A DNA stretch of 64,000 nucleotides from a virus (IMGVR_UViG_3300030616_000506:80546-144545), one strand, 5' to 3'. Positions 36,606 to 56,177 are shown, counted from the first letter of the stretch. The notes: generated by a model from the letters alone, not told the origin. A program made the numbers and translations.

Positions 36606-36953
36606 TCATAAAATTTCTACCATCGCTTCTTCCTTATCTAACTTTTCTCCATACTCATTAATATATGATCTATTAACTAGAGCATTTTTATTATTGGTTA
36701 TATTATAATATCTATAATGTTTACTAACATATCCTAGTATCCTTATTACTATAGTATCATCATCTTTCCATTTTAATCTTAAAATATCTCCTTTCTTATA
36801 TTTCTTTCTGTAACTCCATCTCTCCTTTAGATAACCTATAGGATGATAGGGAGAATTATAAAAGATATGAGTTACTCCTACTACAGTGATAAGACAAAAA
36901 CCAAATAATATTAGCACATACATTGTAGCATTAAATATATCTATCCAATTCAT
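36606..36953 (-). CDS. Tail-bearing membrane protein with SH3-like domain
   Basis: 115 residues. Transmembrane segment at residues about 8-28 (NATMYVLILFGFCLITVVGV), then a small barrel-like domain (YKKGDILRLKWKDDDTIVIR) of the same K-x-G-D type as many genes at 41-50 kb. Ends KLDKEEAMVEIL, the canonical tail, although it is the last gene of its cluster. Confidence 0.65.
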   Translation of the reverse strand: MNWIDIFNATMYVLILFGFCLITVVGVTHIFYNSPYHPIGYLKERWSYRKKYKKGDILRLKWKDDDTIVIRILGYVSKHYRYYNITNNKNALVNRSYINEYGEKLDKEEAMVEIL

Positions 36954-37198
36954 AATAACTCCACCATTATATCATCTTCTGATAATCTAGTTAATGTGTC
37001 ATGTATCCTATCAATATAAGTGATTTCATCATCTTCAACACCACTATCTATATTAATAATACACTTTATACAATCTTCAAAGCAATCATCTTTATAATGT
37101 ACATCTATAATAATTATACCTATAAAACTCTCTCCATTATCTAAAGTTACCTTTACAATATCTCCCTTATTTAAGTCAGTGAATTTTAAAGATGACAT
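36950..37198 (-). CDS. Tail-bearing SH3/KOW-like small protein
   Basis: 82 residues: LNKGDIVKVTLDNGESFIGI is a KOW/SH3-barrel opening, with later cysteines CFEDCIKC. Ends RLSEDDIMVELL with GGTGGAG in the DNA before the ATGA junction. Confidence 0.65.
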   Translation of the reverse strand: MSSLKFTDLNKGDIVKVTLDNGESFIGIIIIDVHYKDDCFEDCIKCIINIDSGVEDDEITYIDRIHDTLTRLSEDDIMVELL

Positions 37199-37769
37199 CT
37201 CCCTTACCTTCTAAACAATACTTACATTTATCACAAGTTAATTTAGATCCATGACCCTTACTACACATATGACCTGTAGGAGCATCTTTATAGTTAGGTA
37301 TCTTATTACTACCATCATCTATAACATATGCCTTTAATCCATCTTTAGGTACTTCTTTACTATCAGGCCATATCGTCCAATAGAGTATAAGATTATCAGG
37401 TTTATAGCTTAAGTCTAAATCATATATTTGAGTATAGGCTAAGAACTTTATCTCTGGAAATAGATAAGCTATAGTACACCATGTGTTAAAATATTCCTGT
37501 GAATAGAAATCTCCTGATTCATGTATCCTAAAGTAAATAGGTTGCTTTAATGATAACCAACTATATAAATTCCACATAAATTGTTTAAATCTTTTACTTT
37601 CTTTATAATTTTTTTCTCTACTAGGTAGAACATTAGGCCATACTCTCTCAGCTTTTTTAGCATAACAATATTCTTTACATAGATCAGTAGCTCCTGGACA
37701 TGTAGTCTCTGCCGGTAGACTAAATGTGGGTATTTCCATTCTTCTATTACCACTACTTATATATACCAT
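37176..37769 (-). CDS. GP88-family protein
   Basis: 197 residues matching the phage GP88 family: IPTFSLPAETTCPGATDLCK, EYCYAKKAERVWPNVLPSRE (about residues 13-52), then IHESGDFYSQEYFNTW and a C-terminal Cys cluster (CSKGHGSKLTCDKCKYCLEG) that may hold a metal or Fe-S cluster. GP88 proteins are widespread in phages and of unknown activity. The start overlaps the 52-residue gene upstream and follows CAGGAG. Confidence 0.83.
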   Translation of the reverse strand: MVYISSGNRRMEIPTFSLPAETTCPGATDLCKEYCYAKKAERVWPNVLPSREKNYKESKRFKQFMWNLYSWLSLKQPIYFRIHESGDFYSQEYFNTWCTIAYLFPEIKFLAYTQIYDLDLSYKPDNLILYWTIWPDSKEVPKDGLKAYVIDDGSNKIPNYKDAPTGHMCSKGHGSKLTCDKCKYCLEGKGDVIFKIH

Positions 37770-37911
37770 TCTTTTTATTCTCCTGATATTCTAAAATACA
37801 TTCCTTACAAACTTCTGGTAGCTGTTCACATAATCCATAATAAGTTCTATTGTAGAATCTAGGCATTTGTTCACATGGTAATCTATCTTTCCAATCAATC
37901 TCTTTCTTCAT
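37753..37911 (-). CDS. Small Cys-containing protein
   Basis: 52 residues with CEQ, CEQLPEVCKEC, a three- or four-Cys zinc-like pattern. Overlaps the GP88 gene start by 17 bases and carries its ribosome-binding site. Could assist GP88. Confidence 0.55.
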   Translation of the reverse strand: MKKEIDWKDRLPCEQMPRFYNRTYYGLCEQLPEVCKECILEYQENKKNGIYK

Positions 37912-37914
37912 ATT

Positions 37915-38121
37915 CTATCCCCATTTAGCCTTATTTATTTGTTGTTTTGTATAATTTCTTTTTTCTTCTTCTATATTATCTTCTGATAGTTGTTCTCCCT
38001 GAATTACAAATATACTATCGTGTATCAAACCTAATTCTTCATTCATATAATCAAGGAGTCTTTCTATTTCCTTTTCATGATAATCATATATTTTATTTGG
38101 TATTATTATTCTAATCTCCAT
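37915..38121 (-). CDS. Hypothetical protein
   Basis: 68 residues: a first strand MEIRIIIPNKIYDYHE, helices and a basic C-terminus. The ATG at 38121 follows GGAGAAGATT inside the end of the zinc-protein gene. An earlier ATG is in the same frame but poorly spaced. Unrecognised. Confidence 0.58.
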   Translation of the reverse strand: MEIRIIIPNKIYDYHEKEIERLLDYMNEELGLIHDSIFVIQGEQLSEDNIEEEKRNYTKQQINKAKWG

Positions 38122-38305
38122 AATCTTCTCCATGTTCTATCACTTCCAAATCTACATCCGTACTTTCTATCTTTTCAAACTTACATCCACAATCTTTACA
38201 TTCCCATACAGATACATCAGTCCAACTCCATTCGTCTCTCTGGATAACTTCAGAGTCATCTATAAGTTCTACATTATCACTATCACATTCAGGACAATAG
38301 TACAT
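38111..38305 (-). CDS. Zinc-ribbon protein
   Basis: 64 residues: MYYCPECDSDNVELIDD and WECKDCGCKFEKI make a four-Cys ribbon like those of transcription or replication accessory proteins, with an acidic C-terminus. The ATG after GAGGAATAATA was preferred over a longer frame. Confidence 0.65.
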   Translation of the reverse strand: MYYCPECDSDNVELIDDSEVIQRDEWSWTDVSVWECKDCGCKFEKIESTDVDLEVIEHGEDYGD

Positions 38306-38315
38306 TATTATTCCT

Positions 38316-38408
38316 CTATAATATTGCATTTGCTATAAACATTAGTAAAACAAAGTTCACGATAGTAAGTCCTATTCCCACTCCATCTAAAAATTCTTTA
38401 CTTATCAT
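38316..38408 (-). CDS. Single-helix membrane peptide
   Basis: 30 residues: MISKEFLDGVGIGLTIVNFV continues into a hydrophobic C-terminus (LLMFIANAIL). Strong GAGGAGATATAA ribosome-binding site. A short hairpin TCAAGC-TCTT-GCTTGA at 38419-38434 lies across the preceding stop codon and may modulate translation. Confidence 0.55.
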   Translation of the reverse strand: MISKEFLDGVGIGLTIVNFVLLMFIANAIL

Positions 38409-38418
38409 TTATATCTCC

Positions 38419-38571
38419 TCAAGCTCTTGCTTGAATATCATTATCAATTTCTCCTAATATTTTAGATACTTCCTCTAATTGTTTCCATTGTTCATCTGTA
38501 AGCATATAACAGGCTCTATCTATATTGTTAGCTCTGAATAATATATGTTGTGTTAAATCTCTTCCTTTCAT
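38419..38571 (-). CDS. Small helical protein
   Basis: 50 residues, helical (TDEQWKQLEEVSKILGEIDN). Starts one base before the two-helix membrane gene's stop region. No recognised family. Confidence 0.55.
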   Translation of the reverse strand: MKGRDLTQHILFRANNIDRACYMLTDEQWKQLEEVSKILGEIDNDIQARA

Positions 38572-38754
38572 TTAATATTCTCTCCTTAAATATAACCATA
38601 CACATGATAAGAATATAGCTGCACCTAGAATAGGTATTCCCAACATCAAATATAATGGTATTTCATATTGTTCTTCTATCAAAGTCATACCAGCAAATAA
38701 TAATACTATTAACAATCCAGATAATAATACAGCTTTATCTATTAAGTAACTCAT
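38572..38754 (-). CDS. Two-helix membrane protein
   Basis: 60 residues with segments AVLLSGLLIVLLFAGMTLI and LYLMLGIPILGAAIFLSCVW and a short charged end. One of five similar tiny membrane proteins in 38.3-40.1 kb. ATGA junction upstream. Confidence 0.6.
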   Translation of the reverse strand: MSYLIDKAVLLSGLLIVLLFAGMTLIEEQYEIPLYLMLGIPILGAAIFLSCVWLYLRREY

Positions 38755-39020: not shown

Positions 39021-39023
39021 ATC

Positions 39024-39725: not shown

Positions 39726-39727
39726 CT

Positions 39728-41230: not shown

Positions 41231-41476
41231 TTAAAGCTCTTCTATCATTAATTTGTCCTTGCTTATTTTCATTACACATTTTTTATCTATTGCTCCATAC
41301 TTATGGGGATTTTCTGACTTTAACATCTTAACATAATAGAACTCTTCTCCATCATCTCCTATTATGTATCCATAATGATCATCCCAAACTAAACCTACCC
41401 ATCCACAATCTTCATCTCCAGGTATAGAATATAGATAAGTAGTCTTTAATACTCTAAAGTAATCACCCTTTTTCAT
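41231..41476 (-). CDS. Tail-bearing SH3-like small protein
   Basis: 81 residues: KKGDYFRVLKTTYLYSI opens a small barrel, with VKMLKSENPHKYGAID later. Ends MKISKDKLMIEEL. Last gene of a run of about seven similar ones (41.2-42.8 kb), followed by a 42-base gap to the glycosylase-like gene. Confidence 0.64.
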   Translation of the reverse strand: MKKGDYFRVLKTTYLYSIPGDEDCGWVGLVWDDHYGYIIGDDGEEFYYVKMLKSENPHKYGAIDKKCVMKISKDKLMIEEL

Positions 41477-41718
41477 AATGATGCAACCATAGCCTCATCT
41501 TCCGTTAATTCTGTAGCACATTTATCCCAATAGTATCTGCTACAATATATTATTCCTATATTTCCTTCTATAGGATCTACATATAATTTATACTTAAGAC
41601 TAACTCCATACATACAACCATCAGGTTGATGTTTTACTCCTGCTAATCTAATCACATAATGCTCTTCTCTGAAAGTATCATTGTATCTATAATATCTACC
41701 TATCTTCATTGATGTCAT
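41473..41718 (-). CDS. Tail-bearing small protein
   Basis: 81 residues, beta-rich (KIGRYYRYNDTFREEHYVIRL). Ends ELTEDEAMVASL, and the ATGGTTGC of the tail precedes an ATGA junction. Paralogous in form to its neighbours. Confidence 0.64.
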   Translation of the reverse strand: MTSMKIGRYYRYNDTFREEHYVIRLAGVKHQPDGCMYGVSLKYKLYVDPIEGNIGIIYCSRYYWDKCATELTEDEAMVASL

Positions 41719-41948
41719 AAACTATCAACAATTAATTCATCAAGAGTATCATAAAATTTAAACATCTGATGCCAACCAAATTCACTGTCTCCTTTCCATA
41801 TCCAATGATACTTAACTTTAGGATTATGGGGATAATTTGATTTTATTAATTCATATTTATAAACTACTTTACACTCTTTAAATATCTTACCTACTATATA
41901 AAAACCTATTTTATCTATTTTAAAATACTTTCCTTCTTTAGATTTCAT
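41715..41948 (-). CDS. Tail-bearing small protein
   Basis: 77 residues: SKEGKYFKIDKIGFYIVGKI opening, Trp-rich middle (KYHWIWKGDSEFGWHQ), end DTLDELIVDSL. Start lies inside the end of the next gene upstream. Confidence 0.63.
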   Translation of the reverse strand: MKSKEGKYFKIDKIGFYIVGKIFKECKVVYKYELIKSNYPHNPKVKYHWIWKGDSEFGWHQMFKFYDTLDELIVDSL

Positions 41949-42216
41949 ACATCATCATCTCATCTAATAGATTTTTACCTAAATAAGATAGTAACTTTTT
42001 CTTATTATTAAATCTGACAGATACATTCTTATCATCATCTGCACTTATTAAAATAACTTCATAATCATCATCAACACCACCATGAATAACTAATGATAAT
42101 CTATTATCCTTTAATTTATAAACCCATAAATAGTAATCATAATTAACCACATAGAATACATCTGGATATATTAAATTAATTAATTCTTCTACTTCATTAC
42201 ATATTCTATTCTTCAT
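41938..42216 (-). CDS. Hypothetical protein in tail cluster
   Basis: 92 residues, alpha/beta: YYLWVYKLKDNRLSLVIHGG and YEVILISADDDKNVSVRFNN. Ends LLDEMMMYEI, a divergent tail. Lacks the K-x-G-D opening of its neighbours. Confidence 0.62.
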   Translation of the reverse strand: MKNRICNEVEELINLIYPDVFYVVNYDYYLWVYKLKDNRLSLVIHGGVDDDYEVILISADDDKNVSVRFNNKKKLLSYLGKNLLDEMMMYEI

Positions 42217-42452
42217 AATAGTTCAACCATAACTTCTTCATAAGATAGTTTCTTACAAATTTCATTCTTGAAGTTTAAACCAATCCATCTATCTCCCCAC
42301 ATCCATTGAAGTTTTCCAATAGTTTTTATTATTTTAAATTTATATTGATTAATTTTATTTTTATTTATAATTTTTAATATATAAACTCCGTGTAAATATC
42401 TAGACTCATATAATATATAGTCTCCTATCTCAAATTTATCATAGGGTCTCAT
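42213..42452 (-). CDS. Tail-bearing SH3-like small protein
   Basis: 79 residues: KFEIGDYILYESRYLHGVYI opening, WMWGDRWIGLNFKNE middle, KKLSYEEVMVELL tail. ATGA junctions on both sides. Confidence 0.65.
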   Translation of the reverse strand: MRPYDKFEIGDYILYESRYLHGVYILKIINKNKINQYKFKIIKTIGKLQWMWGDRWIGLNFKNEICKKLSYEEVMVELL

Positions 42453-42841
42453 ATCTTATCAACTATATTTGCATCTATTACATAAGTAAAGTCATGATAC
42501 ATTCTTATTGAATACTTATAATCATCATTCTCTATATCATTTGTATAAGATAATCTATTAACTACCCAATCAAAATCCTTTTTATTAAGTAAACCAAATG
42601 AGCCTAAACTATAATATTCTCCATAAAACTTTTTATTATAAGATAACTTTAAATCAGCTCTATTCATTAAGTTCTTAACTAATGGCATAGATATATCTAT
42701 AGCCTCAGGATTTATTGTTAAATATACTCCTCCCCAATTCTTATCATCATTACTCTTATATATAGTTCCCCATATATTACCAGTTATCTTTTCATTATCA
42801 CTTTTTCTAGTGATTATATATTCCCCTATCTTTTTCTTCAT
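42449..42841 (-). CDS. Hypothetical protein in tail cluster
   Basis: 130 residues, beta-rich with NDDKNWGGVYLTINPEAIDI and a long strand/turn middle. Ends YVIDANIVDKI, which keeps only the VxxI part of the tail. Start after GGGAGTTAGT. Confidence 0.62.
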   Translation of the reverse strand: MKKKIGEYIITRKSDNEKITGNIWGTIYKSNDDKNWGGVYLTINPEAIDISMPLVKNLMNRADLKLSYNKKFYGEYYSLGSFGLLNKKDFDWVVNRLSYTNDIENDDYKYSIRMYHDFTYVIDANIVDKI

Positions 42842-43772: not shown

Positions 43773-44012
43773 CTATAAACTCTCAACTATCATTTCATCT
43801 TTACTTATCTTTTTATAATCCCAAGCATCCTTATGACAAGTTATTCCTATTAATCTACTGTGCCTCATAAATTCATTAGTTATAATACTAGTAAATATCT
43901 GTTTTAGTTTAACTTCTATTAAATTATTATATTGTTTTACTGACTCAATATAAATAAATGATTTATATTTACCATCTGGATATATATAGTATTCTCCCTT
44001 TTTAGGTATCAT
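43773..44012 (-). CDS. Tail-bearing SH3-like small protein
   Basis: 79 residues: PKKGEYYIYPDGKYKSFIYI opening and KKISKDEMIVESL tail. Here the stop is TAG followed by a separate AGGAGG for the next gene, so the tail is kept although it is not the start signal. Confidence 0.64.
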   Translation of the reverse strand: MIPKKGEYYIYPDGKYKSFIYIESVKQYNNLIEVKLKQIFTSIITNEFMRHSRLIGITCHKDAWDYKKISKDEMIVESL

Positions 44013-44239
44013 AGTAATTCAACCATAGCCTCATCTTTAGATAATTTCTTTAAATCAAAAGCATATCTTTTTATACCATTAGTATGATTTATAAAATATT
44101 CTCCATATATATTTGGTATATATAATAATGGACATATTAAGTAGTAATCAGTATCTACTTCCTCCTTTATGATTCCATATATAGGATTATCTTTATATGG
44201 ATAATCTGATTTAACTAAATCTCCTTTCTTAAATTTCAT
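44009..44239 (-). CDS. Tail-bearing SH3-like small protein
   Basis: 76 residues: KFKKGDLVKSDYPYKDNPIY opening, YFINHTNGIKRYAFDL middle, KKLSKDEAMVELL tail. Canonical member of the 43.8-45.7 kb array. Confidence 0.65.
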   Translation of the reverse strand: MKFKKGDLVKSDYPYKDNPIYGIIKEEVDTDYYLICPLLYIPNIYGEYFINHTNGIKRYAFDLKKLSKDEAMVELL

Positions 44240-44463
44240 AATAACTCTACCATTACTTCATCTCTATTTGCTATCCTTAAACATTTATCATCAAACAATT
44301 CTGTTCTTCCTTTAATCCTTCCATTTAGAAATCTAACAATATATGGATATTTTTTAATTGGATATACATCTATTATTTCTGCTATTAATCCAACTTGATT
44401 CCTATAATATGTAACCTTTGGATGAAGTATTATCTTCACATAATCTCCTACTTTATACTTCAT
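44236..44463 (-). CDS. Tail-bearing SH3-like small protein
   Basis: 75 residues: KYKVGDYVKIILHPKVTYYR opening, RNQVGLIAEIIDVYP is a KOW-like turn, and RIANRDEVMVELL is the tail. ATGA junctions on both sides. Confidence 0.66.
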   Translation of the reverse strand: MKYKVGDYVKIILHPKVTYYRNQVGLIAEIIDVYPIKKYPYIVRFLNGRIKGRTELFDDKCLRIANRDEVMVELL

Positions 44464-44702
44464 AACAATTCTACCATTACTTCATCTTTATTCTTAATAA
44501 AAGTTATATCTATTACTGATGAATCTAAATTAAAATGTCCTTTTTCTCCTACATCCCAAACACTATTCTCATCAGCATATATAACTTTACAATAAGGAAA
44601 TTTATTTATTCTTGTATTATATTCTAATACTACAAAATATACTTCAAATGATTTGTAATATTTATATATAGCCTTTATATAATCTCCCTTTTTAAATTTC
44701 AT
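44460..44702 (-). CDS. Tail-bearing SH3-like small protein
   Basis: 80 residues: KFKKGDYIKAIYKYYKSFEV opening, VIYADENSVWDVGEKGHF middle (the YADEN string recurs in the 47299 protein), IKNKDEVMVELL tail. Confidence 0.66.
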   Translation of the reverse strand: MKFKKGDYIKAIYKYYKSFEVYFVVLEYNTRINKFPYCKVIYADENSVWDVGEKGHFNLDSSVIDITFIKNKDEVMVELL

Positions 44703-44938
44703 AAATTAAACACCATTATTTCATCATCAGTTAACTTCCTATCAATTTCCTCTTCAGATAATAAAAACTCAAACTCAGTGTTAACATAACTTGAATTTAG
44801 TATCTTAACTAGATAGGGATATTTTCTATCCTTTCTTAATTTAGTTACTATTGCTACCTTATTCTCAAATCCATCATAAATTGTTTTTCCTATTAATATA
44901 TAATCATTTAATTTATATAATAGTTTCTTGAATCTCAT
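44699..44938 (-). CDS. Tail-bearing SH3-like small protein
   Basis: 79 residues: YKLNDYILIGKTIYDGFENK then VAIVTKLRKDRKYPYLVKIL, like the YPYIVRFL segment of the 44236 gene. Ends RKLTDDEIMVFNL. Confidence 0.65.
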   Translation of the reverse strand: MRFKKLLYKLNDYILIGKTIYDGFENKVAIVTKLRKDRKYPYLVKILNSSYVNTEFEFLLSEEEIDRKLTDDEIMVFNL

Positions 44939-45126
44939 AACATCTCTACCATAATTTCATCATTAGATAATTTTTTATAATCAACACTATCACTAAAATA
45001 AATCTTTGTATTAGGATTAAATAATGATTCCCCTTCATAGCAATAAATATAATTACTCTCTATTATAGTAATTCTAAATAATTCTCCTTCATGATTTTTA
45101 ATTACATCTCCTTCTTTAAACTTCAT
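44935..45126 (-). CDS. Tail-bearing SH3-like small protein
   Basis: 63 residues, the shortest of the array: KFKEGDVIKNHEGELFRITI opening and KKLSNDEIMVEML tail. Essentially one barrel plus tail. Confidence 0.65.
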   Translation of the reverse strand: MKFKEGDVIKNHEGELFRITIIESNYIYCYEGESLFNPNTKIYFSDSVDYKKLSNDEIMVEML

Positions 45127-45419
45127 AATAATTCTACCATTAATTCTTCCTTTAATTTATTAATGTCATTAACCTTAAACCATCTCCTATGTAAAGCAGG
45201 AAATATAAAACTTAAATTTATAGGGAGATTCCAGTATGTTATATCATTTGTATTAATTTTACTATCATTAGTTTTCTTATATAAAACTTTAACTTCAACA
45301 TAATTAAAATCTGCTCCAGCCATATACCTTTTCTTTAATTCTAATATCCTTCTAATCTCTAACACAAATATATTAACCTTATTATCATCTACTTGTGCAA
45401 TTATATCTCCTATTTTCAT
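45123..45419 (-). CDS. Tail-bearing small protein
   Basis: 98 residues: MKIGDIIAQVDDNKVNIFVL opening, strand-rich middle, NKLKEELMVELL tail. ATGA junctions. Confidence 0.65.
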   Translation of the reverse strand: MKIGDIIAQVDDNKVNIFVLEIRRILELKKRYMAGADFNYVEVKVLYKKTNDSKINTNDITYWNLPINLSFIFPALHRRWFKVNDINKLKEELMVELL

Positions 45420-45742
45420 AAAAATTCAACCATAAGACTATCCAGTATATCATCTTCATAGCACTCTAATATATCTACTTCCTTATCAGATATCTTTTTC
45501 CAAACTTCTGACCACATTAAGCTAGATTTTTCATTAGTAAAATTCTCATCTACCTCTCTAATCCAAGTTCCTTTATTATTTGCTGTGATTATTCTAGAAG
45601 TTTCCTTTATTAGAACAGCAGGAAACAAATCATATTTACCCTTCTCAATATCAATTATATTAGCCAACCAATAATATATAATATAATCTTTAGTTTCCTT
45701 TACTATATTAAAAGTCATATTCCTATAATGTTTTCTTAACAT
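45416..45742 (-). CDS. Tail-bearing small protein
   Basis: 108 residues: DYIIYYWLANIIDIEKGKYD and a Trp-rich C-terminal helix (SSLMWSEVWKKISDKEVDI), tail DDILDSLMVEFL. First of the array after the VWA gene. Its start has only a weak ribosome-binding site (AAAGAA). Confidence 0.63.
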   Translation of the reverse strand: MLRKHYRNMTFNIVKETKDYIIYYWLANIIDIEKGKYDLFPAVLIKETSRIITANNKGTWIREVDENFTNEKSSLMWSEVWKKISDKEVDILECYEDDILDSLMVEFL

Positions 45743-45753: not shown

Positions 45754-47094
45754 TTAATTTCTTTTTGGTAATTCTATCACTTGTCCATAAGGAAAATCTT
45801 TAGAATCTGCTCTCCAATGTCCAGCTACTACCCATAAGACAGGCATATTAACTTGACTTTTAGGAGGAAATGATGTATAACCATCCGTAAAGGCTATAAC
45901 AAATTTAGATTGAGGTTTATTCTTATTAATCCAATCAAATACGGGAATGTGGCTAGTGCCTCCTCCTCCCTTAAGATTCTTACCTATTCTCTCAACTACT
46001 TCAGATGCTTGAGCATTTCTCATGGGATGAATACCATTTACTTGACAATCACAATCTATTACCGTTAAATCAACATTCTTAAAACTATTACATATACTAG
46101 ATATTTCAGATATAAATTCTGCTAATTCTTTTTGACTTATACTTCCTGATGTATCTACTGCTACCATTACATCTATACTTTCCCTAACAGTATCAGGTAG
46201 ATATATTCCTGTGCTATAACTTCTTTTAGATGGTTTAGCCCAAGTAAAATCTATAGGAATTTGATTTGTTATATATCTATAAAGTAATCCTTTCCAATCA
46301 ATATAAGTTTCCATTAATTGTCCAACTACTCTCTCCATACCTGCTGGTAAATCTCCTCTTTGCCTAGCATAAGTGCAAGCATCTACTAAAGTCTTTTTCC
46401 AATCAACTTGTTTATCAGATATCTTCTTACCATTCTTATTACCAGTTCCATTACATTTAGGGCAATCCTTATCTCCTACCTTACCTGTTCCATTACAGTT
46501 ATCACACTTACCATTTTTCTTTTTATCACCTTTACCATCACCATTACCATAGATATGTTTATCAAAACCCTTAACACCATTCTTCTCTAGGTATTTCTTA
46601 ATGGCTTTCATATCCTTTTTAATCTTTTTAGATAGTCCTCTATATAGTTTATCATATACTTCTTCAGATGTTTTCTCAGATGCTTTCTTAATAGTAATAC
46701 CAAATATAGTTATCTCTCCATTATAGGGATTAATAGCATTTTCAGGTAAACTCATACCATCATCTAATAGCATAGAATTAATTACTGTATCTGATGCTAT
46801 ATTAAATAACTCGTGGTTTTTACCCTTACCTCTCTCTAAATGTTCTAATGCACAATGCATTACTTCATGTGCCATTACTCCCTTTATCTGGTCATCTGTT
46901 AGTTTATTTATAAAATCTGAATTAAAATACAGATTACCATACATATCTACTCCTGCTGTTTCTATTTCAGGTTGCTCTATAAAGGTTAAGTGCATAGTTA
47001 AATAACTAAAGAAGGGTTTCTCTTTTTGTAATTGCACTCTAGCCCTTATAAGTTTTTCTTCTGCTGTTAAATCTAGGTTTAATATTCCACTCAT
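45754..47094 (-). CDS. Metallopeptidase-like protein with zin-finger insert and VWA domain
   Basis: 446 residues. HEVMH (76-80) in KGVMAHEVMHCALEH is the zinc site of the DUF2201-type putative metallopeptidase domain. A DnaJ-like insert follows (CDNCNGTGKVGDKDCPKCNG, about 195-215). The C-terminal von Willebrand A domain has the MIDAS motif DTSGSIS (about 315), with FTDG near 405. It pairs with the MoxR-type ATPase gene just upstream, as in many MoxR-VWA couples that remodel proteins or insert metals. Start coupled to the preceding gene by GAGGAG. Confidence 0.87.
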   Translation of the reverse strand: MSGILNLDLTAEEKLIRARVQLQKEKPFFSYLTMHLTFIEQPEIETAGVDMYGNLYFNSDFINKLTDDQIKGVMAHEVMHCALEHLERGKGKNHELFNIASDTVINSMLLDDGMSLPENAINPYNGEITIFGITIKKASEKTSEEVYDKLYRGLSKKIKKDMKAIKKYLEKNGVKGFDKHIYGNGDGKGDKKKNGKCDNCNGTGKVGDKDCPKCNGTGNKNGKKISDKQVDWKKTLVDACTYARQRGDLPAGMERVVGQLMETYIDWKGLLYRYITNQIPIDFTWAKPSKRSYSTGIYLPDTVRESIDVMVAVDTSGSISQKELAEFISEISSICNSFKNVDLTVIDCDCQVNGIHPMRNAQASEVVERIGKNLKGGGGTSHIPVFDWINKNKPQSKFVIAFTDGYTSFPPKSQVNMPVLWVVAGHWRADSKDFPYGQVIELPKRN

Positions 47095-47095
47095 A

Positions 47096-47302
47096 TTACA
47101 ACTCCTCTATCATTATTTCCTCTCTTAATTTTTTAGTATCAAAATTTATAGCTATATACTTTGCTATACATTCATATATTTTACCTCTCCTTTCTATTAC
47201 GGGATATGCTTCACAATAGTCATTTCTACAATCCTCTATCGTATTCCAATCTTCTATTATATCTAGTAAATCATCTATCTTTTTCTCTATTTCTTTATTC
47301 AT
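47096..47302 (-). CDS. Tail-bearing helical protein
   Basis: 68 residues, helical (NKEIEKKIDDLLDIIEDWNT). Tail KKLREEIMIEEL, whose GAGGAG is an obvious ribosome-binding site for the metallopeptidase/VWA gene six bases downstream. Cys pair near the middle. Confidence 0.64.
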   Translation of the reverse strand: MNKEIEKKIDDLLDIIEDWNTIEDCRNDYCEAYPVIERRGKIYECIAKYIAINFDTKKLREEIMIEEL

Positions 47303-47544
47303 ATTGCATACACCATAACTTCCTCTAAAGTTAATTGAAATATTTTATCATCACTATATACAAGTAAATATGTATCAGGATTACCATTTTCATCTGCGTA
47401 TATACATTGAAAGGAATATAGATTATCTACATCTAGAAATCTAATTACCTTACCAACATATACACAACCAAAATCAATTTCTTTTCCTGATATTACCTTT
47501 ATATATTGTCCTATCTCAAGTTTATCATAAGTAATCTTTTTCAT
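47299..47544 (-). CDS. Tail-bearing SH3-like small protein
   Basis: 81 residues: KLEIGQYIKVISGKEIDFGC opening, IYADENGNPDTYLLVYSDDK middle, LTLEEVMVYAI tail. Lies between the MoxR and VWA genes, so all three may be functionally linked. Confidence 0.65.
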   Translation of the reverse strand: MKKITYDKLEIGQYIKVISGKEIDFGCVYVGKVIRFLDVDNLYSFQCIYADENGNPDTYLLVYSDDKIFQLTLEEVMVYAI

Positions 47545-47548: not shown

Positions 47549-48694
47549 TTAAGTCAATAGATACTTTTGATATTTTTTGCTAATAGGTTTCCAAGATTTA
47601 AGAGTAGTTACATACTTCTTAAAGGATGAAGGATGTTTATTCTTTGCAAATCTCAAGAGAAGTATAGCAAATTCTGGTTGAATAACATTTGCTATTTGTA
47701 ATACTTTCTCTAGGTTTTCCTTCTTATTATTCATAGCATACCATTCTGCAACCATACCCAATAGAGAATACTTTAAATCCATTTCTTTAATATTGGCTGC
47801 CTTTTCAGGTCTAGCTAATATCTCATTAAGATTAATGTTCTTTTGTAATCTTAAGAAGGATTCAAATTCACTAGCTGCACCAACTCCAACACTAACACAA
47901 GCATATTGATATACTTGTTTTAAATCCTTAACACCAGATATAAGTTTATTACAATACTTACCCCAACTTCTAGGTGTAGGAAATGCTCTCTCATTACTAT
48001 CAGCTTTTATTTTAGGATTTAATAGAGTAGGTCTTTGTATTAAAAAGGATACTATCCTCATATCAATACCCTTCTCTAATGCCCATTCTCCCCAATCATT
48101 CTTACACTCTTGTGTAATATGGGGTATCTTTAATGTAGCATGACAGAATCTATTCTGTAAAGGTCTAGGCAAATCATATACATTTGCTTTATCCTCTATC
48201 CTATTACCAGCTGCTATTAAACCAACACCTTCAGCTAGTGCAACTTCTCCCATTTCTCTATCTAATATTAACTGATAAGCACCAGCCTGTATAGAAGGAG
48301 GAGCTAAGTTTATCTCATCAAAGAATATAATACCCATAGCATTCTTTAATGTTGCTACCAATAACCAGAATGGTATTTTCCATTCACAAGTATCTTTACC
48401 ATTTAAGGATGGTAGTCCTCTTAAGTCACTTGGGTCTAATTGGGATAACCTAATATCCATTAGAAAGAAATACTTTTCAGGATTATCAGCAACTTTATGC
48501 TTCTCTTCCTTTGTAAGTTTATTCCATCTAACATAGATTCTCCCGTGTTTTCTTGCTAATTCTTCAGCCTTCTTGTCCACAGTTTCTGATTTTCCTATAC
48601 CAGTTGCACCCCATATATATAATGGAATGTTAGATTCATAATGGACATCTACTAGGTTTTCTAATTCTTTATGGTCTACTTCTGCTACTGCCAT
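47549..48694 (-). CDS. MoxR-type AAA+ ATPase
   Basis: 381 residues. Walker A GATGIGKS (29-36), Walker B GIIFFDEINLAPP near residue 123, sensor 1 in GLIAAGNRIEDK, and the arginine-rich LPRPLQNRFCHATL after it. The C-terminal 160 residues are helical. It should power the metallopeptidase/VWA partner encoded next. Own AGGAG site despite a tail-bearing gene immediately before it. Confidence 0.9.
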   Translation of the reverse strand: MAVAEVDHKELENLVDVHYESNIPLYIWGATGIGKSETVDKKAEELARKHGRIYVRWNKLTKEEKHKVADNPEKYFFLMDIRLSQLDPSDLRGLPSLNGKDTCEWKIPFWLLVATLKNAMGIIFFDEINLAPPSIQAGAYQLILDREMGEVALAEGVGLIAAGNRIEDKANVYDLPRPLQNRFCHATLKIPHITQECKNDWGEWALEKGIDMRIVSFLIQRPTLLNPKIKADSNERAFPTPRSWGKYCNKLISGVKDLKQVYQYACVSVGVGAASEFESFLRLQKNINLNEILARPEKAANIKEMDLKYSLLGMVAEWYAMNNKKENLEKVLQIANVIQPEFAILLLRFAKNKHPSSFKKYVTTLKSWKPISKKYQKYLLT

Positions 48695-48705: not shown

Positions 48706-48942
48706 CTATAATTTTTCTACCATTACTTCATCATTAGTCATAATCTTAAATTGATAAGAATAATAAGATTCATCATAAGGTTTCCAAGTAGAGTGTCTTC
48801 TATCAATAAAAGCTACTTTGTATTCTACCCTTTTCTTACAAGAACTATCCCATTTAACTATTCCTTTAATCTTTCCTATCTTTCCAGTATCCCAACCCTT
48901 TATTATCCTTACATATTGTCCTAATTTACCTTTTTGTTTCAT
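48706..48942 (-). CDS. Tail-bearing KOW-like small protein
   Basis: 78 residues: KLGQYVRIIKGWDTGKIGKI is a KOW motif, then KVAFIDRRHSTWKPYDESYY. Tail KIMTNDEVMVEKL ends in TAG, and the following MoxR gene has its own GGAG, so the tail is retained without serving as the start site. Confidence 0.67.
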   Translation of the reverse strand: MKQKGKLGQYVRIIKGWDTGKIGKIKGIVKWDSSCKKRVEYKVAFIDRRHSTWKPYDESYYSYQFKIMTNDEVMVEKL

Positions 48943-49193
48943 AATCTCTCCACTAATATTTTATCCTTTATCTTTTTCCTCAATATTATGTAATCCTTAA
49001 ACTGCGTATAGAAACTTATTAGAAAACAATGTAGATGATACTTATCATATCTAGGTCTACTTGAATGCCCCCAATATTCTCCTGCTAATAATCTAACTAC
49101 ATCATCTCCCTCTTTAATAGTTTCTCCACAATATTCACAATTACACTCTAGATGCTTATACATCTTTCCTAACTTTATTTCGTGTGAAGTCAT
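48939..49193 (-). CDS. Tail-bearing treble-clef protein
   Basis: 84 residues: HLECNCEYCGETIKEGDDVV and HLHCFLISFYTQFKDY form a zinc treble clef similar to the next protein upstream. Tail KIKDKILVERL. Confidence 0.65.
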   Translation of the reverse strand: MTSHEIKLGKMYKHLECNCEYCGETIKEGDDVVRLLAGEYWGHSSRPRYDKYHLHCFLISFYTQFKDYIILRKKIKDKILVERL

Positions 49194-49423
49194 AATTTAT
49201 CAACCAACATCTTTTCTTTCCATTTTTCTAGAGAATCTTTATCTAATTCTAAATATAATTGTTCAATACAATAACTACATATTCTTTTATGTGAATATCC
49301 CCATTGAGTTCTATATTCAAATGATATCCTATCTATATCTTTAGGAATAGTTTTACTACATACTGAACATACTTGTCTACCATTTTCTCCCTTATTTAAT
49401 CTATTTCTATATCTATCACTCAT
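49190..49423 (-). CDS. Tail-bearing treble-clef protein
   Basis: 77 residues: RQVCSVCSKTIPKDIDRISF and KRICSYCIEQLYLELDK form a four-Cys treble clef. Tail KEKMLVDKL. Probably paralogous to the 48939 gene. Confidence 0.65.
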   Translation of the reverse strand: MSDRYRNRLNKGENGRQVCSVCSKTIPKDIDRISFEYRTQWGYSHKRICSYCIEQLYLELDKDSLEKWKEKMLVDKL

Positions 49424-50061
49424 TACAATTCATCCAATATCATTTGATTAACAATCTCCTCCTCAATTAAGGGTGTCAATTCAACTTTACCTAATCCATT
49501 TTGTTTGATTTCTCTTAATAAACTTAAACCTTTACTTAAGGATAATACGTGTCCTTTATTTTCCACATATCCTCCATTTCTTATTATCTTTGAAATATGA
49601 TAGCACAATAATCCTCCTCTTTTTCTAAAGAAGATTAAACAACCACAATAAGATTTAGCATAAGCTATTGCTTCTCTAAACATAGCTCTCTTTATAGTTC
49701 TAGTTTCTCCCCATCCTATACTGAAGTATTGTATTCCACAATCTCCTAATACATCTCTAACGGTTGTTGTATCCTCAACATCAGGCATCTCTACTAAACT
49801 CTCCTTTAATCTTAATCTATAAAACTTTTTAAGTTTATTTAAATATTTAGTTTCCATTCTAGCAAATTCACCTATACCATTTTCAAAGTATAATGTAGTT
49901 ACATCATCTTCTGTCTTATAATAGGTAGGTCTAGTGCAATAATAATTTCCTATATCAAACCCTTTATATTTACTAACATCATCAGGTTTATATTCTATAT
50001 AGTATATCTTTCTTTTTTTATCCCAATAATGAGGTTTACTATACAACTTACATTCACTCAT
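49423..50061 (-). CDS. Tail-bearing hypothetical protein
   Basis: 212 residues. An N-terminal strand-rich part (HYWDKKRKIYYIEYKPDD) leads to an alpha/beta region with YFSIGWGETRTIKRAMFREA and SYCGCLIFFRKRGGLLCYHI. Ends EEIVNQMILDEL. Start is TAATG. Unrecognised; possibly an enzyme given its size and Cys/His content. Confidence 0.62.
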   Translation of the reverse strand: MSECKLYSKPHYWDKKRKIYYIEYKPDDVSKYKGFDIGNYYCTRPTYYKTEDDVTTLYFENGIGEFARMETKYLNKLKKFYRLRLKESLVEMPDVEDTTTVRDVLGDCGIQYFSIGWGETRTIKRAMFREAIAYAKSYCGCLIFFRKRGGLLCYHISKIIRNGGYVENKGHVLSLSKGLSLLREIKQNGLGKVELTPLIEEEIVNQMILDEL

Positions 50062-50220: not shown

Positions 50221-50472
50221 TTATAATGCCTCTATAAATGCTTCTTTCTTACTAATCTTTTTAATCTCATTTCTATACCAATAACCTTGAAACTCATAGT
50301 TCTTACCACTGGATATATCTCCTCTAGGATTATAATTAACTACATATCTTTTTCTAAAAAATCTTCCTTTTTCTATAGCTACTATCTGCCCAATCTCATT
50401 AGCTTTATGAACTAATGTTCCATAAACATTAAATTCTTTTTTAACTCTAACGTAATCTCCTATCTTAAGCAT
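50221..50472 (-). CDS. Tail-bearing KOW-like small protein
   Basis: 83 residues: MLKIGDYVRVKKEFNVYGTL, then ANEIGQIVAIEKGRFFRKRY (KOW). Tail KKISKKEAFIEAL, stop TAA two bases before the next ATG. Confidence 0.65.
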   Translation of the reverse strand: MLKIGDYVRVKKEFNVYGTLVHKANEIGQIVAIEKGRFFRKRYVVNYNPRGDISSGKNYEFQGYWYRNEIKKISKKEAFIEAL

Positions 50473-50760: not shown

Positions 50761-50955
50761 CTATAATTTACTTATTAATGCCTTATCCAAATCATCTTGA
50801 GTAGCATCTCTAAATTTATACTGTTCATTATCTACCTCTACACCTACAAATTCATCTCCATTATAATTAAAGATGACCATATATTTTTTAGAGTTATTAG
50901 ATTTTCTACATAAGAACTTCCATTCATCTTCTAAATTTGGAATGTAAGCTACCAT
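50761..50955 (-). CDS. Small hypothetical protein after radical SAM gene
   Basis: 64 residues, strand-rich (KKYMVIFNYNGDEFVGVEVD), ending QDDLDKALISKL, a tail variant. The ATG overlaps the radical SAM stop as TAATG. Confidence 0.6.
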   Translation of the reverse strand: MVAYIPNLEDEWKFLCRKSNNSKKYMVIFNYNGDEFVGVEVDNEQYKFRDATQDDLDKALISKL

Positions 50956-51770
50956 TATTTTCTCTTTAGATACGGACAATCATATCTCTCCTTATATTTA
51001 ACATTAGTTATTCTTAATAAATCTTTAGGTTTATTCAATTCTAATAAAGGTGTTTTACTAAATGAACAACCATAAACTTTACCTTGCTCATTTATACTGA
51101 TTATATCTCTACCAAAATGACAAGGCTTATCCCAACCTTGATATTTATTTTGAGTTAATATCATATTAGTTAAATCATCTACATAGAAATGTTTATACTT
51201 AAAGGTTGGTGCATAATATAATGCTCTAAACTTTAAGATATCAGGAGCTTTCCAATTCTTTGGATATAATGCAAATACTCTTTCTATCTTTGCACTATTG
51301 AAAAAGTAATGCAGTAAACTTAAAAATGATTTAGGAGTATTTAACCAGTAATTATTTATTAGAAAATTACAACCAACTCTAGTATATTTACTTAACTCTC
51401 TAGTAGTCATACAGTAATTATGTATATCTTGATTAGATTTTATTTTATGTTCATCAAAGGATACACTAACCATCTCTATATCATCAACATAATACTTCAT
51501 AGGTAATGTTCCATTAGTAGTAACATTAGTAATTAATCCATATTTTTTAGCTTCCCTTGAGAAATCTCTCACAAACTCTGGATACATAAAAGGCTCACCA
51601 CCACCTAAAGCTACTTGTGGTGTAAGCTTTGCTAGATAAGGTATTAATTCCTTAAACCAATTATGAGATTTATTATTATCTGTTTTCTTTGGTCTATAAC
51701 AGAATTTACAATCCATATTACAATCAGTTGTAAAGTGTAATGCTATAACTTTATATCTTTTTTCCTTCAT
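50955..51770 (-). CDS. Radical SAM enzyme with SPASM-like C-terminal cysteines
   Basis: 271 residues. The [4Fe-4S] motif CNMDCKFC is at residues 16-23, followed by VALGGGEPFMYPEF (GGE motif, about 54-67). The C-terminal part has CHFGRDIISINEQGKVYGCS and YDCPYLKRK, a reduced SPASM/twitch-type auxiliary cluster arrangement as in peptide-modifying enzymes. It is directly preceded by a series of small genes sharing an LNPNCSE start and overlaps the last as TGATG. Peptide modification is inferred from this context. Confidence 0.87.
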   Translation of the reverse strand: MKEKRYKVIALHFTTDCNMDCKFCYRPKKTDNNKSHNWFKELIPYLAKLTPQVALGGGEPFMYPEFVRDFSREAKKYGLITNVTTNGTLPMKYYVDDIEMVSVSFDEHKIKSNQDIHNYCMTTRELSKYTRVGCNFLINNYWLNTPKSFLSLLHYFFNSAKIERVFALYPKNWKAPDILKFRALYYAPTFKYKHFYVDDLTNMILTQNKYQGWDKPCHFGRDIISINEQGKVYGCSFSKTPLLELNKPKDLLRITNVKYKERYDCPYLKRK

Positions 51771-52063
51771 CAATATCCTATCTCCAATTTTTTTGCAAAT
51801 GGTAATTTATAAAGATATTCTAAAATCTTTTCCTCACTATTAAAGGGTGCATCTCCCCTAATTTCTATCCAAGATACACTACCTAAACTTGCTGTTTCTA
51901 TATAGGTATCATACCACCAATCATATTCCTCTATGTTATCTTCATCAGCATACTTATCAAGTAATAACAAATATCTATATAATTCTTCCTCTTCTTTATT
52001 GTTTAGATTATCTGTTCTAACTCTCATAGTAGCTTCAGAACAATTTGGGTTTAAATCAATCAT
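51770..52063 (-). CDS. LNPNCSE-leader small protein 1
   Basis: 97 residues beginning MIDLNPNCSEATMRVR, then an acidic helical/strand body and the end KLPFAKKLEIGY, which matches the end of the 52350 protein (NTPFAKKLKI). The conserved leader holds one Cys. The start is coupled by ATGA to the tail-bearing 52060 gene. Candidate partner or substrate of the radical SAM enzyme. Confidence 0.65.
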   Translation of the reverse strand: MIDLNPNCSEATMRVRTDNLNNKEEEELYRYLLLLDKYADEDNIEEYDWWYDTYIETASLGSVSWIEIRGDAPFNSEEKILEYLYKLPFAKKLEIGY

Positions 52064-52353
52064 AATAATTCCACCATTAATTTATTCTTATCTATCATTT
52101 CTTTATAACGATTTTTAATTTCAGCTAAATCTATTAATCCTATATTTTGTTTTAAGGTTAAATCATCTATATATCCATCATACTTTTTTATTGATATAGG
52201 TTTAAATATATAACAATTAGTTAGCATACCTGAATACTTGCTATATCTATATCCTGTAATTTTAATTATATTTCCATTAATCTTATTCTTAAAATATCTA
52301 TTAATATATTTAGATTTTGAATTCGGAAATGATTTATAGGTAGAATTCATCAT
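52060..52353 (-). CDS. Tail-bearing small protein
   Basis: 97 residues, basic, strand-rich (NRYFKNKINGNIIKITGYRY). Tail EMIDKNKLMVELL with GGTGGAATT. Inserted between two LNPNCSE genes. Confidence 0.64.
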   Translation of the reverse strand: MMNSTYKSFPNSKSKYINRYFKNKINGNIIKITGYRYSKYSGMLTNCYIFKPISIKKYDGYIDDLTLKQNIGLIDLAEIKNRYKEMIDKNKLMVELL

Positions 52354-52589
52354 ACATATTCCTGCTCATTTCTAATCTTTAATTTTTTAGCAAAGGGTGT
52401 ATTCATAATACATTCCTCTATCTCATCTGTCATATCCTCTACTCTAGCTACTGCATAATCTTTACAACAATCTATTTCATCAAACATAGAAAGATATTTA
52501 TTCATTTCCTCTCTTTCCTTTTTGGTTAAATCATCATACATTATGTAAAGAAATGTAACCCATTCGGAACAATTAGGATTGAGCATCAT
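52350..52589 (-). CDS. LNPNCSE-leader small protein 2
   Basis: 79 residues: MMLNPNCSEWVTFLYIMYDD, acidic helix, end NTPFAKKLKIRNEQEYV. The leader and the PFAKKL end match the 51770 gene. The start overlaps the end of the 52573 gene. Confidence 0.65.
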   Translation of the reverse strand: MMLNPNCSEWVTFLYIMYDDLTKKEREEMNKYLSMFDEIDCCKDYAVARVEDMTDEIEECIMNTPFAKKLKIRNEQEYV

Positions 52590-52943: not shown

Positions 52944-53429
52944 CTACTTTATATTTACATCTGGTCTTTTTAATAAGCTATCCCTCTTCTTTTTACTCTT
53001 TTTACTTTGATAATCTTTAATAGGTTTACAACCATTATGAACCCATTCTTCATATTCATTAGCACTACCACCATCCTGTCCATATACTTCTCCACTTAAT
53101 TCATCCTGTATCTTTTTTAATGTGGGAAATAACTGATGTTGACAATGCTGATGTCCATCTATCCTTATACCATCATCTCCATAACCATTATCCTCACCAT
53201 CTCCATATATATGTATAGTTGCTCCATTTTCATAATCAGGCATATTAGGATTATCTTTATCAAATACTACTGACATCTTATCTCCTGAATTATCCCATTC
53301 ATATATATCATTACTAGGAATTTCTATATAATATATTCCTAAATCTTTAAGCATCTCTATAACTTGCTCTTTAGTATAATCATCAGGTAATCTCAACACT
53401 AACTCACTACAATTTGGATTTAATAGCAT
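52944..53429 (-). CDS. LNPNCSE-leader protein 3
   Basis: 161 residues: MLLNPNCSELVLRLPDDYTK, a body with Gly/Asp-rich strands (ATIHIYGDGEDNGYGDDGIR, HQHCQHQLFPTLKKIQ) and a basic C-terminus (KKSKKKRDSLLKRPD). First of the LNPNCSE series in transcription order, with its own GGAG. Confidence 0.66.
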   Translation of the reverse strand: MLLNPNCSELVLRLPDDYTKEQVIEMLKDLGIYYIEIPSNDIYEWDNSGDKMSVVFDKDNPNMPDYENGATIHIYGDGEDNGYGDDGIRIDGHQHCQHQLFPTLKKIQDELSGEVYGQDGGSANEYEEWVHNGCKPIKDYQSKKSKKKRDSLLKRPDVNIK

Positions 53430-53431
53430 TT

Positions 53432-54202: not shown

Positions 54203-54207
54203 AATAA

Positions 54208-54363
54208 TCACTCTGCATAAGTATAATCATTTGGAGGATATGTTTTATTCTGTAAATCCTCAATGTATTTAGTCATCTCTAGTTTCTTTAGTTCATCTAC
54301 TTTCTTTTTTAATCTTTCCATTCTGTCTTCCTCACTCTCATAACTACAATCTACATCATACAT
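54208..54363 (-). CDS. Small coiled-coil protein
   Basis: 51 residues, charged helix (EEDRMERLKKKVDELKKLEM) and a Pro/Tyr-rich end. The stop TGA lies within the ribosome-binding site of the metallopeptidase-like gene. Confidence 0.57.
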   Translation of the reverse strand: MYDVDCSYESEEDRMERLKKKVDELKKLEMTKYIEDLQNKTYPPNDYTYAE

Positions 54364-54449
54364 TACAGTTCACAACCACATACCCAGCATTCATCTGCAT
54401 TGATATTATTTCCCATTCCACAATCTTTACATATCTTTTTATTCTTCAT
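54363..54449 (-). CDS. Tiny zinc-binding protein
   Basis: 28 residues: KKICKDCGMGNNINADECWV and CGCEL make a four-Cys ribbon (double zinc-ribbon half). Overlaps the preceding gene end and the next start. Confidence 0.55.
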   Translation of the reverse strand: MKNKKICKDCGMGNNINADECWVCGCEL

Positions 54450-54783
54450 CACATACACCTTCCCAACATTTTAATAGAGTTTGTATCTTATTTTCTTTTC
54501 CCCATTTCTTTAAATCTTCATAAGCTTCTTTGTGATAAACTTTTATTATCTTTGTAGCTAGATTAATATCACCAGCTGGTCTAGATATATTTATAGTTTC
54601 TTTAATCTCCTTAAACCATTTCTTTTTAGTTCTTTCATAAGGTATATATTTCCATACAGTAGCAAATTTACCTGCACAGGATACCTGAAAATAATAATCA
54701 TCTCCAAAATAATTATCTAGCTCTTTCCTAAATATATCATCTTTCTTTTTTCTTAACATATTTGTGCATATTTCTTCCTTCAT
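54439..54783 (-). CDS. Hypothetical protein
   Basis: 114 residues, mixed: a basic helical start (NMLRKKKDDIFRKELDNYF), a strand region (YYFQVSCAGKFATVWKYIPY) and helices ending LLKCWEGVCDEE. Unrecognised. Confidence 0.6.
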   Translation of the reverse strand: MKEEICTNMLRKKKDDIFRKELDNYFGDDYYFQVSCAGKFATVWKYIPYERTKKKWFKEIKETINISRPAGDINLATKIIKVYHKEAYEDLKKWGKENKIQTLLKCWEGVCDEE

Positions 54784-54793
54784 ATATATTCCT

Positions 54794-54949
54794 CTATATA
54801 AGATGATATCTCTTTAATATTTCATAGTCCTTAAAGTATAGTAAATCCCATATCTGAAACAGCTTACCCAATCCCATATGGTTACATACACCCAAGAAAC
54901 TACTGTATGTTTGCTCTCTACTTTTTTTACTCTTATATTTCTTTCTCAT
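54794..54949 (-). CDS. Small basic hypothetical protein
   Basis: 51 residues: basic start MRKKYKSKKSREQTYSS, then a helical segment (LGKLFQIWDLLYFKDYEIL). Stop followed by GAGG for the next gene. Unrecognised. Confidence 0.52.
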   Translation of the reverse strand: MRKKYKSKKSREQTYSSFLGVCNHMGLGKLFQIWDLLYFKDYEILKRYHLI

Positions 54950-54950
54950 T

Positions 54951-55070
54951 TTATTCCTCTTTATAATTACACATTATATCTGAACAACCTAATACCTGTC
55001 CACCACCAGCACAACAATACCATATCTTTAGTGGCTTTCCACAGATAGGACATTTATCTCCTATTTTCAT
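54951..55070 (-). CDS. Tiny zinc-ribbon protein
   Basis: 39 residues: GDKCPICGKPLKIWYCCAGG and LGCSDIMCNYKEE hold six cysteines. Preceded by GAGTGACTGAAATG, one of a series of stop/Shine-Dalgarno overlaps. Confidence 0.58.
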   Translation of the reverse strand: MKIGDKCPICGKPLKIWYCCAGGGQVLGCSDIMCNYKEE

Positions 55071-55082
55071 TTCAGTCACTCA

Positions 55083-55229
55083 TCAAAAACTTTTATCTTT
55101 AATAACCATAATTGCATAAGGTATCCAAGCCAATAAATTAAATGGGAATATTTTATCACTAATGGCTAACAGTCCTAATGATACTATTGCACCAAATAGA
55201 AAAGTATATGTTTTTACTTTCATTTTCAT
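55083..55229 (-). CDS. Small membrane protein
   Basis: 48 residues with YTFLFGAIVSLGLLAISDKI and FNLLAWIPYAIMVI. Preceded by GAGTAATTGAAATG. Unknown role. Confidence 0.57.
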   Translation of the reverse strand: MKMKVKTYTFLFGAIVSLGLLAISDKIFPFNLLAWIPYAIMVIKDKSF

Positions 55230-55240
55230 TTCAATTACTC

Positions 55241-55360
55241 TCACTTTAATATTCTACTCGCTAATCTATGTATTCTTTCATGTTGTTTTAATTCTTTTTT
55301 ATTTAGTTTATACCAAACTAATCCTATATTTCTTGTTTTGTATATGTAAGTAATTTTCAT
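55241..55360 (-). CDS. Small basic protein
   Basis: 39 residues: ITYIYKTRNIGLVWYKLNKK then a helical KQHERIHRLASRILK, reminiscent of a compact DNA-binding peptide. GAGTGATTGAAA ribosome-binding site. Confidence 0.54.
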   Translation of the reverse strand: MKITYIYKTRNIGLVWYKLNKKELKQHERIHRLASRILK

Positions 55361-55366
55361 TTTCAA

Positions 55367-55489
55367 TCACTCTTTTATAATTTCTTTTAAAGTATTAGTA
55401 ACATCAACTCTATTATAATACTTTTTTAAATCTGGTATTTGAGTTTCTAAATAATCTGCTAACCAATTAGGCATTAATATTATATCCAT
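55367..55489 (-). CDS. Small hypothetical protein
   Basis: 40 residues (MDIILMPNWLADYLETQIPD...), strand then helices. GAGTGATTGA precedes the ATG and contains the upstream stop. Confidence 0.54.
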   Translation of the reverse strand: MDIILMPNWLADYLETQIPDLKKYYNRVDVTNTLKEIIKE

Positions 55490-55490
55490 T

Positions 55491-55652
55491 TCAATCACTC
55501 AACTTTATAAAATTTCTTTTAACTATAAGCTCCTCATATCTTATATCAACATTCATCTTATTGTAATCTATTAAAATTTGATACACCCAAATATTAGAGT
55601 TACCTTTAGTATCAAGATGTATTAAGTCTATAAATTTATCTCCTATTATCAT
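55491..55652 (-). CDS. Small SH3-like protein
   Basis: 53 residues: MIIGDKFIDLIHLDTKGNSN opening with the I-G-D start seen in the barrel family, end KRNFIKLSD. The longer frame upstream overlaps the zinc gene and is rejected. Confidence 0.55.
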   Translation of the reverse strand: MIIGDKFIDLIHLDTKGNSNIWVYQILIDYNKMNVDIRYEELIVKRNFIKLSD

Positions 55653-55653
55653 T

Positions 55654-55818
55654 TTATTTCTTTTCCTTTCTACAACAAGTGCATCTCCAACTATCATCTT
55701 TCATTTTATTATGCACTCTTTTTCCTTTACCATATATCTTATCCTGTTGAGGACATTCACAATCACAGGATAATATCTTACAGTTTGTTTCCTTTTTAGT
55801 TTTATCTCCTTCCGTCAT
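55654..55818 (-). CDS. Small Cys-rich protein
   Basis: 54 residues with CKILSCDCECPQQDK and RCTCCRKEKK, eight cysteines in tight clusters, suggesting metal binding beyond a simple ribbon. Coupled by ATGA to the tail (MVEYL) of the next gene upstream. Confidence 0.6.
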   Translation of the reverse strand: MTEGDKTKKETNCKILSCDCECPQQDKIYGKGKRVHNKMKDDSWRCTCCRKEKK

Positions 55819-56177
55819 AAATATTCCACCATTACTCTATCCCTTAACTCAATGGGTATTTCATTATCCTTTAATTTTCTTAACTTTAAAATTTCTATCC
55901 ACGAACTAGAAGCATACTTATCTCCTTCAACTAATTCCTTTAATAGATATCCCCCATATAATAATAAATCACTCAACATTCCTTCATTATCTTTATATCT
56001 ATTATATTCAAGATAGTAACTCATATTTTCTATATGCAAACAAAATAATCTATCCATAATATATATCCTAAAGAGTTTATTATTAATTCCTGCTATATTA
56101 ATAGGAGTAGCACTAACATAAGTTCTAATCTGACTATCCTCATCTATTTCAGGTAGTTTATTCCTCTTTAATTTCAT
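55815..56177 (-). CDS. Tail-bearing hypothetical protein
   Basis: 120 residues: strand-rich N-terminus (TYVSATPINIAGINNKLFRI), helical middle (MLSDLLLYGGYLLKELVEG) and tail ELRDRVMVEYL with GGTGGAAT. Farthest upstream tail gene of the region. Confidence 0.63.
   Translation of the reverse strand: MKLKRNKLPEIDEDSQIRTYVSATPINIAGINNKLFRIYIMDRLFCLHIENMSYYLEYNRYKDNEGMLSDLLLYGGYLLKELVEGDKYASSSWIEILKLRKLKDNEIPIELRDRVMVEYL

Follow-up and report, generated by a model that had tools for sequence, protein, structure and literature searches.

Many small accessory proteins of this phage end in one short acidic and hydrophobic tail, and its codons are under two superposed selections, one for a ribosome-binding site and one for the peptide. 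The hydrophobic register and the final Leu or Ile are selected as peptide, with a consensus that is specific to each phage lineage. The tail can be described tentatively as a dual-coded C-terminal helix that may be a docking tag for one common putative partner, a function given somewhat less than an even chance.

The window, the whole stretch of 64,000 nucleotides analysed, corresponds to positions 80546-144545 in a virus record 144,545 bases long. Since the contig carries genes for a terminase with an intein-like insert, a portal, a prohead protease, an HK97-type capsid protein and a family B DNA polymerase, it belongs to a tailed phage. The insert, of Hint/LAGLIDADG type, splits the terminase large subunit (L001:1416-3821). 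Between 52 and 80 kb of the contig (L003, L004), large minus-strand genes follow one another in a long run; of the two genes checked there, one encodes a cytidylyltransferase fused to a PEP mutase and the other an NDP-sugar epimerase with a CBS match. Among named phages, neither the DNA polymerase nor the protein encoded at 44236 has a close relative. Evidence on the host is weak and consists of one capsid relative on a Planctomycetota MAG contig.

The tail in this phage and its relatives

The tails are placed among small accessory genes on the minus strand; the first 80 kb of the contig contain no good match. In the window, 33 minus-strand genes have the C-terminal pattern [D/E/N/K]-x-x-phi-phi-x-x-[L/I], which can be summarised as [D/E]-[E/K]-x-phi-[V/I]-x-x-[L/I]. 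Stricter endings are MVEx[L/I] in 12 genes and exact DExMVExL in five, which bears out the initial annotation's estimate of about 25 proteins ending close to D-E-x-M-V-E-x-L. All the tails it listed are present except the one at 17400, where a 50-aa ORF (17400-17552, minus strand) has the tail-like end EWIMVDE without the final Leu. In the N-terminal half of the consensus, position -8 is Asp (24/33), -7 is Glu or Lys and -6 is hydrophobic (32/33); in the C-terminal half, -5 is Met (21/33), -4 Val (27/33), -3 Glu (18/33) and -1 Leu (28/33). The tails, with their genes, are as follows:

4030-4056, minus strand, DKLLVSCI, gene 4030-4404
10648-10674, minus strand, DKLMVSKI, gene 10648-10971
27189-27215, minus strand, DWIMVNRL, gene 27189-27443
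27440-27466, minus strand, DRLFVIRL, gene 27440-27760
27757-27783, minus strand, DLIAVERL, gene 27757-27984
29741-29767, minus strand, DKVFVDEL, gene 29741-30181; next gene has its own SD
32174-32200, minus strand, DLLMVIAL, gene 32174-32605
36606-36632, minus strand, EEAMVEIL, gene 36606-36953
36950-36976, minus strand, DDIMVELL, gene 36950-37198; SH3-like signature
41231-41257, minus strand, DKLMIEEL, gene 41231-41476; SH3-like signature
41473-41499, minus strand, DEAMVASL, gene 41473-41718; SH3-like signature
41715-41741, minus strand, DELIVDSL, gene 41715-41948; SH3-like signature
41938-41964, minus strand, DEMMMYEI, gene 41938-42216
42213-42239, minus strand, EEVMVELL, gene 42213-42452; SH3-like signature
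42449-42475, minus strand, DANIVDKI, gene 42449-42841
43773-43799, minus strand, DEMIVESL, gene 43773-44012; next gene has its own GGAGG
44009-44035, minus strand, DEAMVELL, gene 44009-44239; SH3-like signature
44236-44262, minus strand, DEVMVELL, gene 44236-44463; modelled as SH3-like barrel, tail is helix 67-74
44460-44486, minus strand, DEVMVELL, gene 44460-44702
44699-44725, minus strand, DEIMVFNL, gene 44699-44938
44935-44961, minus strand, DEIMVEML, gene 44935-45126
45123-45149, minus strand, EELMVELL, gene 45123-45419
45416-45442, minus strand, DSLMVEFL, gene 45416-45742; without SH3 signature
47096-47122, minus strand, EEIMIEEL, gene 47096-47302; without N-terminal SH3-like signature
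47299-47325, minus strand, EEVMVYAI, gene 47299-47544; SH3-like signature
48706-48732, minus strand, DEVMVEKL, gene 48706-48942; next gene has its own GGAG
48939-48965, minus strand, DKILVERL, gene 48939-49193; CxxC protein
49190-49216, minus strand, EKMLVDKL, gene 49190-49423; modelled as zf-PARP-like zinc finger
49423-49449, minus strand, NQMILDEL, gene 49423-50061; 212-aa protein, orthologues in four related phages
50221-50247, minus strand, KEAFIEAL, gene 50221-50472; SH3-like signature
50761-50787, minus strand, DKALISKL, gene 50761-50979
52060-52086, minus strand, NKLMVELL, gene 52060-52353
55815-55841, minus strand, DRVMVEYL, gene 55815-56177

At the other end of some proteins, a shared motif of about M-x-(x)-LNPNCSE opens otherwise different sequences (51770-52063, 52350-52589 and 52944-53429, minus strand); starts of this type also occur at 8543 and 9163 in a related phage contig, L034.

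An unbiased two-component mixture model, anchored at the stop and applied to the last 10 residues of 240 genes, gave a log-likelihood gain of 366 at the C-ends, compared with 204 +/- 8 in shuffled ends (z = 21) and 143-159 in other stretches of the same proteins. The z value is at most 2.3, that is, no tails, for the sections of T4, SPO1, N4 and phage G that were compared. Relatives of this phage (G000) were reached through its MoxR gene, and z values of 25.6, 44, 8.9 and 5.6 were found among them. The nearest relative, G003 (L013), has DExMVExL in common with this phage. The tail is F-[L/M]-E-x-[L/I] in G005 (L014/L015), SExELVAxLL in more than 25 genes of G006 (L022/L023), and DDEIxxH-phi-phi-MExI in the main array of G008 (L024). 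A second G008 array (L063:3531-4535) has LTxxEVxxMVLPRII common to four small proteins, with their own GGAGG after the stop in three and TAAGGAGG in the fourth. The version in G002 (L007) is weak, and the C-end model finds no tail consensus in G001 (L006). DNA-pattern scans of viral contigs returned mainly these same phages together with L034 and L105, other matches being mostly single and due to chance; a scan for the family of the 212-aa protein added no phages, and the literature searched yielded no relevant account of C-terminal tails shared within phage arrays.

Each lineage has its own consensus: this phage shares M-V with its nearest relative, another phage has F-[L/M] and a third L-V-A. 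Phe at -5 occurs in 19/30 tails of G005 and in 3/47 of G000 and G003 together (p = 9e-8). Orthologues follow the local type, the zinc-finger protein ending in KMLVDKL, KIMVKRI or EIFMEEL and the 212-aa protein in QMILDEL, ETLINKL, AIFMKNI or KIFMENL according to the phage. Since orthologues agree no better in their tails than in their bodies (2/8 and 48% identity for the zinc-finger pair), the pattern is kept but not the exact letters, as for a short linear motif.

Two selections on the same codons

The ribosome-binding layer is confined to two codons. At overlapping junctions, third-position G occurs at codon -4 in 11 cases in G000 (1.6 expected) and 20 in G005 (9.4 expected), and at codon -3 in 7 (4.1 expected) and 19 (4.7 expected), respectively, while the other tail codons are near expectation. 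Val codons in G000 are GTG in 11/27 cases, compared with 7% genome-wide, and in 7/8 where -3 is not GAN. SD-compatible codons thus stand at the right spacing in overlapping genes of G000 and G005, where predicted anti-SD pairing exceeds synonymous nulls (z -4.8 and -6.9). From this codon evidence, Glu at -3 is driven by the ribosome-binding site, and part of the M-V preference in G000 probably is too. The tails of G006 show no such pairing above synonymous nulls (z -0.3), SD-like sequence being present at other starts of that phage, and the strongest tail in one phage is without a ribosome site. The translational-coupling footprint proposed earlier therefore exists, but accounts only for Glu and the preceding G-ending codon.

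The peptide layer was examined with the pattern [MLFIWVA][VILM]xx[LI]-stop in the array regions of G000, G003 and G005, regions and patterns having been picked after the tails had been seen. Inside the arrays, the pattern is present in 56/104 overlapping genes and in 12/25 genes whose neighbour has its own SD (p = 0.66), so that a separate ribosome site for the next gene does not abolish the tail. Outside the arrays it is found in 7/157 overlapping and 3/32 own-SD genes, together 10/189; own-SD genes inside and outside differ at p = 0.002, on small own-SD samples. Residue counts in own-SD genes are a less fair measure than these frequencies, because the final Leu or Ile is there by definition; in G005, such genes keep Phe at -5 in 5/7, while Glu at -3 is left in 2/7 and GAG in none. 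Two stops singled out in the initial annotation do retain the tail despite the next gene's own GGAGG or GGAG: TAG is followed by GAGGTAAAATG at 43773 and by GAGAAAAATATATG at 48706. The peptide-level constraint that it suggested thus persists where the neighbouring gene brings a ribosome site of its own, while free drift outside the ribosome-binding codons, which would have reduced the tail to a start signal, is not what is seen: residues are held and synonymous codons drift.

A tail that is nothing more than the mark which ribosome binding for the next gene leaves in the DNA would explain the G excess at -4 and -3 and the GTG codons, and an SD inside the upstream gene is frequent at gene overlaps (PMC6728339). 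As sole cause it is refuted by the own-SD genes that keep the tail and by the G006 tails without SD, and the overlapping genes elsewhere in the same phages are mostly without a tail; it is left with a very small probability. Equally improbable are recombination or gene-conversion cassettes that homogenise the junctions. Junction DNA is indeed alike at 44-45 kb, but where residues agree, codon choice approximates genome usage at most positions, the clear departure being the last (ATGA) codon. Synonymous codons show almost the diversity expected from codon usage, so the tails are not homogenised DNA and gene conversion was rejected.

Carriers, and the possible meaning of the tail

Structure models (AlphaFold) cover two carriers. 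In the first, the 44236 protein forms an SH3-like barrel of five strands (pLDDT 89), and its tail is helix 67-74 (pLDDT about 90). Its nearest solved folds are PsaE, YorP and NusG, the first two with TM of about 0.65-0.7; it thus has the barrel fold of the SH3-like (PsaE/YorP/KOW) family, while its sequence scores 16.7 bits against PsaE, under the cut-off of 27. For the 49190 protein the model, of moderate confidence (pLDDT 76; tail 56-59), is a zf-PARP-like zinc finger in which the tail closes the last helix, 50-76. Not all carriers are therefore SH3-like, and on these models at least two folds carry the tail. Body similarity among carriers is barely detectable, in few pairs only, and a family uniting the 33 was sought without success in Pfam, PHROGs and PADLOC. 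An N-terminal SH3-like signature, G-[DEQ]-[Y/V/I], is present in about 16/33, so that about half of the carriers are probable paralogues and part of the tail sharing is descent. The description of the carriers as unrelated proteins holds as far as the two folds and the faint body similarity go, but not for this half.

The main rival to a docking tag is a purely structural helix: the tail would complete the fold of one fast-diverging small SH3-like family, the other carriers being coincidence or undetected kin. This is possible if doubtful. The signature in about half of the carriers is consistent with it, and the confident C-terminal helix of the modelled barrel could also reflect packing against that barrel. 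G006 and the main G008 array resemble single paralogue families sharing N- and C-terminal motifs, and G001 orthologues keep a hydrophobic helix end without the consensus. However, the zinc-finger, 212-aa and other proteins bear the tail and follow the lineage consensus, and divergence is far greater in the bodies meant to support the helix than in the register. A degron, by which a hydrophobic C-terminus would shorten the life of early phage proteins through a host protease, is quite unlikely. In Mycoplasma pneumoniae, C-terminal hydrophobic residues, Leu most of all, speed degradation, and they are avoided across bacteria (PMC7246954); but the acidic part, the helix cap and the -5/-4 register go beyond what that effect needs, and lineage-specific residues are unexplained unless proteases differ between hosts.

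As in a docking motif, the peptide is conserved on different folds. The tail is best read as a short alpha helix at the C-terminus, N-capped by S/T-x-D/E-E in SH3-like carriers, whose positions -5, -4 and -1 form a hydrophobic face; numerous small accessory proteins, with at least two folds between them, bear it, and at ATGA overlaps codons -4 and -3 also serve the next gene as its ribosome-binding site. Inside the infected cell, the helix may dock each carrier on a single shared partner, encoded by phage or host, which would co-evolve with the phage lineage while the carrier bodies diverge freely. That several large phages each have a private C-terminal address tag directed to one phage-specific hub, tag and hub co-evolving while bodies turn over, is a broader and unlikely version.

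A VWA and MoxR pair lies among the arrays (45754-47094 and 47549-48694, minus strand). Relatives of this MoxR, which is similar to N4 gp24, occur in many phages. The suggestion that the pair reads the tail found no support: phage contigs with the same MoxR (L016-L021, L025-L031), mostly covered as 10-kb flanks, have no tails within 10 kb of it, and G001 has both genes but no consensus.

If the docking tag is true, dozens of orphan phage proteins would be grouped as one system, and the tail would be a direct bait for its target, a route into phage dark matter beyond sequence similarity. Even as a structural element, it would offer a clean example of codons on which selection for the protein can be told from selection for the ribosome site.

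Comparison with known systems

The junctions are like ATGA termination-reinitiation coupling (PMC6728339) in their overlapping start and stop, the SD-like bases in codons -4 and -3 and the codon choice shaped by them, while the hydrophobic register, the acidic part and the tails without overlap or SD remain unaccounted for by coupling. ssrA-type C-terminal degrons are also short peptides with a hydrophobic end on many proteins; the present tail is gene-encoded each time, acidic and helical, and its consensus differs per phage. The tip of SSB is an acidic-hydrophobic C-terminal short linear motif able to bind one pocket. The tail is similar in its acidic stretch and hydrophobic C-terminus but, unlike the SSB tip, is found on dozens of different proteins instead of one hub, and its partner is putative. 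Small SH3-like proteins (PsaE-like, Bacillus YorP 2HEQ, KOW/uL24) are comparable in that a carrier model matches the PsaE and YorP folds and the array proteins are single-domain, whereas the sequence match is under family cut-offs and the tail occurs on other folds too.
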